In this document: positions 29,347 to 51,623 of the stretch, one piece after another
Numbering within the stretch: the first letter of the stretch is position 1
Layout: each line of letters begins with the position of its first letter
DNA from: Lichina pygmaea
Lineage: Eukaryota > Ascomycota > Lichinomycetes > Lichinales > Lichinaceae
DNA length: 64,000 nt
Reading direction: 5' to 3'
NCBI GenBank assembly: GCA_963422465.1
Contig: OY730169.1
Location: 4,526,001 to 4,590,000 of the forward strand
Translations under genes and position numbers: made by a program
Notes under the pieces: model-generated
What the model was told of the DNA's origin: nothing
Database searches by the model: none
What the model saw: the letters and a program-made list of their open reading frames with translations, nothing else

Positions 29347-30449
29347 CTATGCAGCTTTAACGGGTTTATCATCCTCGTAGTCAATCTCGCGAATGCCTTC
29401 TTCGGTGATGACCTTGACGAGCATGCCCTTGAAGTCGATGGGCATCCGCCTCTTGAGCTCGTCCGTGCACATGCGCAGAATCTTGAGGCCCTGCTCAAAG
29501 TCAATGTCCCGGTGATGGTGCTTGTCGAGGATCGATAGGCAGTAGTACCTATAGCGCCGGGAGCACAGGCCGCGGGTTTTGGTTAGTTGAGAGAGGTATT
29601 GCCTTGAAGGGGTTGACCTGAATAGACTTGGGATTGGAATTGGGCTGAGGCTTGAGGGGGACCCGCAGGTGCCGTGTGCTGTCATGGTACGCCGAATGAT
29701 GGGCAATGCAAACCTAGCTCAATGGAATGTCGATGCGGGCAGGTCGTTGGGGAGCAGAATGAAATTCGTGAGACGTACTGCGCATAGCCATGAGCGGCGT
29801 ACGGCACCGGAGCTAACGCCGCCAAGTAGTCCAGCCAGTACAACGACGGTCGATGCGTGATCGGGTCGACGCCTCCGAGCAGGAGGTTGACCGAGTATGG
29901 TTTTCTCGAGCGCAAGCTGGTTGCTAGTTCTTGGCGCACGAAATTCGCCACGGCGGACGGCGACAGATCGGTCTCGTTGCGCATTGAGTACAGCTGCACG
30001 TTGGCTTGAATGTATTCGGCGAATTGCACTGCGTTGAGTCAGACATATATCAGCAACGACACACCACTCAATAGCGAGGGCAAAAAGTAGACCCAAACCG
30101 GCTCAACGGTGACAGATAAGTAGAATCGCCATTCGGCAAGAGCAGCCAGTTACCAAGAGCTCACGGACAGGGATGCGGAGCTTCAGAGCAATGGGTGGAA
30201 GGGAGACAGCACCGGTATCACCAGCCTCGCCCGAGAAGGCCATCATGGTATGGGAGTTCAGCTGGCGCGTCTTGTCGTCTTCGGTCTTGAGGATGGTCGC
30301 CCCGCGCATCGCGGCTTTGGACGCCGCGACCAGAGTGAAGTCGCGGCCGGTGAGTCCAAGGAGGACTTCCCTGCATAGTTCCACCAAGTAGCGATCAGTA
30401 AAGGGAGCTCGGCCGAAGGTACGGAGCTCGAGATATTGAGAACATACAT
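29347..30449 (-). CDS. pre1: Proteasome subunit beta type-4 (Pre1/PSMB2), start codon split by an intron
   Basis: The model is exons 30449-30448 (AT), 30370-30213, 30028-29779 and 29548-29347, predicting 203 residues, against about 198-201 in the family. Joining AT to the G after the acceptor TATGCAG yields [20 protein letters not shown], the expected beta-4 N-terminus. The 77-nt intron has donor GTATGT, branch ACTGAT and a good acceptor. No other in-frame ATG gives this N-terminus. Further markers are [38 protein letters not shown] and [20 protein letters not shown]. Beta-4 is a non-catalytic subunit of the 20S core ring: no propeptide and no active Thr1, as expected. Exon phases agree throughout. 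The alternative is that translation begins at a contiguous ATG at 30449-30447 on unspliced RNA, which would not reach this frame. Confidence 0.85.
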
Positions 30450-31077
30450 GTCGCTACGATATGGAGATATGAACGACTGGGAGGGTTCTGGACGTTGTGT
30501 CGGTGATGGAGCTTGCCGCAAACGACGCGATAGCTGCACTGCTGCCTCCGACCGCTGAACGTGCTCGCCGAAGCTTACCCGTACGAAGTACGTACGTACT
30601 AGGTACCGTACGTACAGAGCTACAGTAGGTTACGTAATTCGCCCTTCCGTACGGAAGTACATACGTACCTCCCGTACTTCCAGCGCGTAAGACTCTCTTG
30701 ATTTGTCTGTGTCGCTAGCTAGGCATCTACCGTAATATACAGAGAAAATTCTCTTCTCTCACGTGACCTCAGCTCTGGCAGCGAGCGAGGACTGGTCTCT
30801 CCCAACCCCCAGGTCAACAGAAATTAATTAATTAATTACTACGAGGAACGCAACCTCGACATCTTCCATCTTGAAGGCCATGTTTCCAATAGTAGAAGAA
30901 TAGCCTGACATGATGCACCCGAATCTTGATGAAGAACGAATGCGTGGTGCCTCCCGACGTTCAGACAACCAGCAGAGCAGCGCAGTGTAGATCTTCCACA
31001 TTGACGGTGCATAAGTCCGTCGTAAAGGCTTTCTCAGGCCAGACATCAGAATGGCTGACGGAGACGTTTGCTCTCCT
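30450..31077. other. pre1 upstream region / RTA1-like 3' flank
   Basis: It contains dense TACGTA palindromes at 30580-30680, including GTACGGAAGTAC. No gene was seen. Confidence 0.5.
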
Positions 31078-50755: not shown

Positions 50756-51623
50756 TCAATCCTGTCGGCCTTTTAGTAACCGCTTCGTGACCTTGTCCTT
50801 CTCGATAATGTAAACATGCGCGCCCCATCCAGACAGTGCGTCTCGATCGACGGCGTTCAGCAGCGCCTGTGATATCGTCTCGAAGAGGTCTTCGGCGGGC
50901 TGCAGCATGCTCGAGTGTCAGTGAAAACCGTTCTAGGGATAGTTGGAGAGGGGCGACAAGGAATACGGTTGGTCAACGGGGGGGGCGGTGGTGACAAGGC
51001 ATGAACCCACCAGATCCGGTTCCCACAGCCCTTCACACGTCCCAAACAGCTGATCGCTGGCGGTGCCGGAGACAATGAAATCCTTGGCAAAGTCGATGCA
51101 GCCGATGCTGTCGAAGCCGCAGATAAAAGGCTTGCCCGTCTTCTGGCTGATGCCAGCAATGACGGGGCTCACAAAGTACGGTCCGAAGCGGCGCTCGTAC
51201 AAACTCGAGCTGACCAGGTTGGCCAGCGTCTGCGGCGACGGCGACCGCTCCTCGCGCAGCCGGTACATGTTGACCTTGTATCGCAGCAGATCCGACACAG
51301 TCGACACGTCCGTGGCCAGGCCCGTCAGGCCCAGGTGCACGTCGCCGTACGAGAAGATCTTTGGGAAGTTGTTCGAGATTGTCAGGGCTTGCATGCCGAG
51401 CCGCAGGTCGCACGCGATCGCGACGCAATCTTTGCCGACCATCGCCACGCAGGCGCCGCCATCTGGGAGACGGCGGTGGTTAGCGTCGACGGCGGAGCAC
51501 CAGTTTCCCTCCAGAGGAGGCGGTTGGTCTTCAGGGAAGCAACGTACTGATGGAGAACGGATTACTCTGTGACCGCAGTTAGTGAGAGTGTCTGCCTGAC
51601 CGTAGACATTGAGAACATACCAT
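50756..51623 (-). CDS. pup3: Proteasome subunit beta type-3 (Pup3/PSMB3); first coding exon is the ATG alone
   Basis: Exons 51623-51621 (ATG only), 51566-51548, 51462-51011 and 50899-50756 give 205 residues, the typical length of Pup3. The joined start is [19 protein letters not shown], as in the family. Donors are GTATGT, GTACGT and GTGGGT; the acceptors are CACAG, CCCAG and TGCAG. Other markers are [60 protein letters not shown] and the C-terminal [20 protein letters not shown]. Beta-3 is a structural, non-catalytic subunit of the 20S proteasome ring, with no propeptide. The gene therefore has an intron directly after its start codon, much like pre1 in this window, where the intron splits it. 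It is divergent from rpl39. Confidence 0.88.

Follow-up and report, generated by a model that had tools for sequence, protein, structure and literature searches.

Does an intron lying between the letters of a start codon control whether a housekeeping protein is made? This question is raised by pre1, the proteasome beta-4 gene of the fungus Lichina pygmaea, as an earlier note on this DNA had proposed that splicing of its first intron acts as an on/off switch for a proteasome subunit. We examined the gene within a window of 64,000 nucleotides, the whole stretch of DNA analysed here (C1:4526001-4590000), taken from a 32.5-Mb genome in 8 contigs. On the minus strand, joining a coding exon of just two bases to exons 2-4 predicts a complete proteasome beta-4 subunit (Pre1/PSMB2) of 203 aa, which ends in ...DKPVKAA and whose spliced start reads AUG GAA GUC (Table 1). 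The predicted product matches the Pfam Proteasome family (PF00227) with 135.2 bits, and among solved chains the best match was yeast beta type-4, with residues 1-193 aligned to residues 1-193, while mammalian beta type-2 also aligned from residue 1. Given this splice model, Met1 of the product corresponds to Met1 of the yeast and mammalian beta-4 chains and there is no propeptide. Comparison of the beta-4 protein with viral contigs and with prokaryotic genome contigs gave 5 and 34 pattern matches, respectively, with no relative among them.

The donor of intron 2, GTGCTG, is unusual, yet it is needed to keep the conserved GEAGDTVQFAEY, and use of the better-looking donors GTGAGC (30164) or GTAACT (30153) would insert non-conserved residues. 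The possibility that this weak donor marks a stwintron was judged by eye and was unsupported.

Table 1. Features of pre1 and of the start-codon introns compared with it. Positions are those of the window unless a contig is named.
Feature	Position	Strand	Details
pre1 exon 4	29347..29548	-	includes stop codon
pre1 intron 3	29549..29778	-	230 nt; donor GTACGT, acceptor TAG
pre1 exon 3	29779..30028	-	
pre1 intron 2	30029..30212	-	184 nt; weak donor GTGCTG; demanded by conserved residues
pre1 exon 2	30213..30370	-	first base is the G finishing ATG
pre1 intron 1	30371..30447	-	77 nt; phase 2 of codon 1; GTATGT...CAG
pre1 intron 1 motifs	30447-30442; 30398-30394; 30373-30371	-	donor GTATGT; branch-like CTGAT; acceptor CAG
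First 17 bases of pre1 intron 1	30431..30447	-	GTATGTTCTCAATATCT; 16/17 as in pup3 intron
pre1 exon 1, coding part	30448..30449	-	AT of start codon
In-frame TAG directly upstream of pre1 start	30454..30456	-	closes beta-4 frame
Frame opened by AUG of retained-intron RNA	30258..30449	-	63 aa; stop in exon 2 (30260-30258)
pup3 (beta-3) start-codon intron	51567..51620	-	54 nt; phase 0; ATG^GTATGT; ATG at 51623-51621
First 17 bases of pup3 start-codon intron	51604-51620	-	GTATGTTCTCAATGTCT
Start-codon intron of alpha-7 gene (L020; gene position given)	C1:4382757		69 nt; phase 0; straight after ATG

The start region of pre1 reads AT^GTATGT...CTGAT...TATGCAG^G on the minus strand, which places a GT-AG intron between the letters of the initiating ATG, with the A of the branch-like CTGAT 24 nt before the final intron base. 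The earlier note had described this arrangement, and its donor, branch-like motif, intron length and acceptor were all present, as was the AT at 30449-30448, with the full beta-4 protein resulting from the join; however, the G that completes the ATG lies at 30370, and 30371, the position given for it, is the last base of the intron. We then looked for any other ATG in the beta-4 frame upstream of exon 2, and there was none in the segment, intron 1 included. As the frame is also shut by the upstream TAG, the beta-4 start must arise by splicing, for which the AT^G join is the evident route. The intron-like pattern ATGTRNGT-CTRAY-YAGG was found at 224 sites on both strands of the genome, or ~3e-6 per position, while a reversed-pattern control gave 92 sites, and at the former rate it is very unlikely that chance would place a site with its end at just the required base. 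We conclude that the split ATG of pre1 is confirmed as a gene model, read from the DNA sequence.

Unspliced pre1 RNA keeps an AUG at 30449, formed by AT and the G of the GT donor, and the frame that it opens would encode MYVLNISSS...TTRRAS, with a stop that precedes introns 2 and 3. The idea that translation depends entirely on the splicing of intron 1 therefore stands in part: beta-4 is unobtainable from unspliced RNA, but the AUG stays at the same A and leads into the wrong frame. Nor is this dependence special to the first intron, because introns 2 and 3 likewise break the frame and the gene relies no more on intron 1 than on those. On the predicted gene model, intron 1 picks the reading frame, and neither creates nor destroys the start codon.

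Introns of this kind have been described before. The available text of a survey of genes in GenBank describes start-codon-disrupting introns, which fall within codon 1 in phase 1 or 2, as relatively rare, and start-codon introns proper (phase 0, ATG^) as common (Nielsen and Wernersson 2006, PMC1626468). The start-disrupting introns of that text are, as in pre1, spliceosomal introns within ATG, pre1 being an AT^G case in a fungal beta-4 gene. Likewise, the available text on Yarrowia lipolytica reports 47 genes in which the first coding exon is just the A of ATG, and intron-retaining transcripts that mostly carry premature stops (PMC2911113). These genes resemble pre1 in having a fungal split start codon and early stops on retention, but as far as that text goes the split is A^TG there and AT^G in pre1. 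Reasoning from the letters, unspliced RNA with A^GT would lose its AUG, whereas with AT^GT, as in pre1, the AUG is kept and opens another frame. The ATG^ introns of the survey text (PMC1626468), like those of pup3 and alpha-7 in the present genome, also lie where the coding sequences of conserved housekeeping proteins have only just begun, although they leave the codon unsplit and are one base off the pre1 position. Literature searches using split or interrupted start codons as phrases gave unrelated matches or none, among the matches listed, and the available text of a stwintron paper held nothing on split start codons. The rarity that had been claimed for introns inside an ATG is thus relative, given the Yarrowia genes in the text cited and AT^G in two more genes here, and the split start codon of pre1 is an already described gene layout, common to other housekeeping genes of this genome.

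Those two genes came from a survey of the 224 pattern sites, in which repeat families were left out by eye and 104 loci were looked at besides pre1. There was no in-frame upstream Met before a stop at 70 of the 104, and in 40 of those 70 the joined frame was 25 aa or longer. Two of the AT^G loci, ribosomal eS10 and AP-3 delta, were picked by eye for their conserved N-terminal motifs and were then checked with phmmer. For eS10 (L108; C6:1404108-1404170, minus strand), the conserved N-terminus MLIPKADRKKIHEYLFK falls exactly at the join, and the peptide's residues 1-17 pair with the same residues of fungal eS10 chains of solved structure (best E 0.00092). For AP-3 delta (L047; C1:4415437-4415497, plus strand), MFEKSLYDLIRGLRNH lies at the join (best E 5.2e-6), where the Met corresponds to residue 13, and not residue 1, of the solved chain. 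Pfam gave no match to these two short N-terminal peptides, and no convincing match to three further AT^G candidate peptides. The genome holds at least three AT^G genes including pre1. Furthermore, 25 Pfam matches grouped by hand gave 14 core-particle genes, and their starts (that of the beta-5 gene, L018, excepted) included AT^G in pre1 and ATG^ introns in pup3 and alpha-7.

Five of these 14 core-particle genes (alpha-7, beta-7, beta-6, beta-4 and beta-3) lie within 195 kb (C1:4382757-4577623), a stretch that takes in window positions 29347-30449 (beta-4) and about 51000-51623 (beta-3). When the genes were placed at random over the seven largest contigs, 195 kb held five or more of them in 5 of 200,000 trials, for a span that was chosen post hoc. 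Separately, the window is strongly enriched, for example at 30589-30667, in TACGTA (90 occurrences where 6.7 would be expected) and in GTACGTAC (25 where 0.5 would be), and five TACGTA copies lie in the pre1 leader region.

In pre1 and pup3, which lie 21 kb apart on one strand, the start-codon introns begin almost identically (Table 1). The whole genome has two copies of the 13-mer GTATGTTCTCAAT, one in each of these introns, and for the 17-mer there is no third genome site with fewer than two mismatches; 10 sites differ from it at two bases, and several of those look like repeat copies. Within the window, the 13-mer allowing up to two mismatches had two matches, which is not unusual (19 of 100 shuffles), though both are exact. 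When the two introns alone were compared, none of 1000 resampled pairs reached their score; beyond the shared start, however, the likeness between the introns was not significant, and neither was that between the two leaders, where 45 of 1000 resampled pairs scored as high. GTATGT sites from part of the genome sequence were compared in 34,980 pairs; 37 of these agree in at least 10 of the 11 bases that follow, and 35 of the 37 are GTAC/TACG repeats. This pair comparison was picked after the match had been seen, although such a match is rare nonetheless. The common element GTATGTTCTCAATRTCT might reflect a functional link, as a joint splicing or transcription element that coordinates the two neighbouring beta subunits, or a historical one, in which the 5' end of one intron was recently copied to the other and the splice site slid by one base. 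We consider such a link unlikely and rate it no higher because the comparison was chosen post hoc. We also suggest that an AT^G could arise from an ATG^ intron by a one-base shift.

Very probably, intron 1 of pre1 is a GT-AG intron of the ordinary sort, removed constitutively, whose location in the start codon of a housekeeping beta-4 gene is incidental and reflects the strong tendency of fungal introns to lie near the 5' end. Its removal would bring AT and G together and yield normal beta-4 from Met1. Were it retained, ribosomes could start at the same A in the other frame and would read 63 codons before meeting a stop in exon 2, and since this stop lies upstream of two further introns such RNA would be expected to undergo nonsense-mediated decay. 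What a plain housekeeping intron leaves unaccounted for is the 17-base donor region that beta-4 and beta-3 have in common in their start introns. That near-identity would fit joint control, and the frame-shifted product makes it possible in principle that intron 1 is a regulated switch, with retention shutting off beta-4 in some condition via frame selection. However, retaining intron 2 or 3 would abolish beta-4 as well, the donor GTATGT matches GTRNGT with no need for special regulation, and, while the 20S subunits are required together, the shared element is present at only two of the 14 core-particle genes. A literature search on split-start introns and on proteasome intron retention in fungi likewise returned no report of such control among the matches listed. 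As the start is not lost on retention and nothing was seen that points to regulated splicing, the switch that had been proposed is unsupported, and we regard it as very improbable.

The split itself could also be only apparent. The real mRNA might link an upstream exon to 30370, leaving the start codon unsplit, as the acceptor at 30371 would accept any donor of the same phase. Nevertheless, the yeast and mammalian beta-4 chains start at the aligned Met with no extension, the remaining ATGs in 30900-30450 give frames of only 3 to 17 aa, and the AT^GTATGT donor stands at an ordinary distance from the acceptor, which makes a different first exon improbable. As for a mistake in the assembly or the sequence close to the start, one assembly was examined and it reads ATGTATGT at 30449-30442, where a single extra G (ATGGTATGT) would yield an ATG^ intron like that of pup3. 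Such an intron would, however, need an acceptor one base further on (CAGG^), which does not end in AG, whereas the existing CAG^G fits AT^G; eS10 and AP-3 delta independently display the same layout, and an error of this kind is extremely unlikely.

The finding bears chiefly on annotation, as gene finders requiring an intact ATG would miss or truncate genes like pre1. The tempting inference that an intron within the ATG must remove the start codon from unspliced RNA also needs mending, in that AT^G introns shift the frame of such RNA while the start codon stays, and A^TG introns remove the start. The pre1 intron itself is ordinary in kind, and the remaining interest lies in the donor element common to the start introns of pre1 and pup3, which, if functional, would mean joint control of two proteasome subunits via their start-codon introns.
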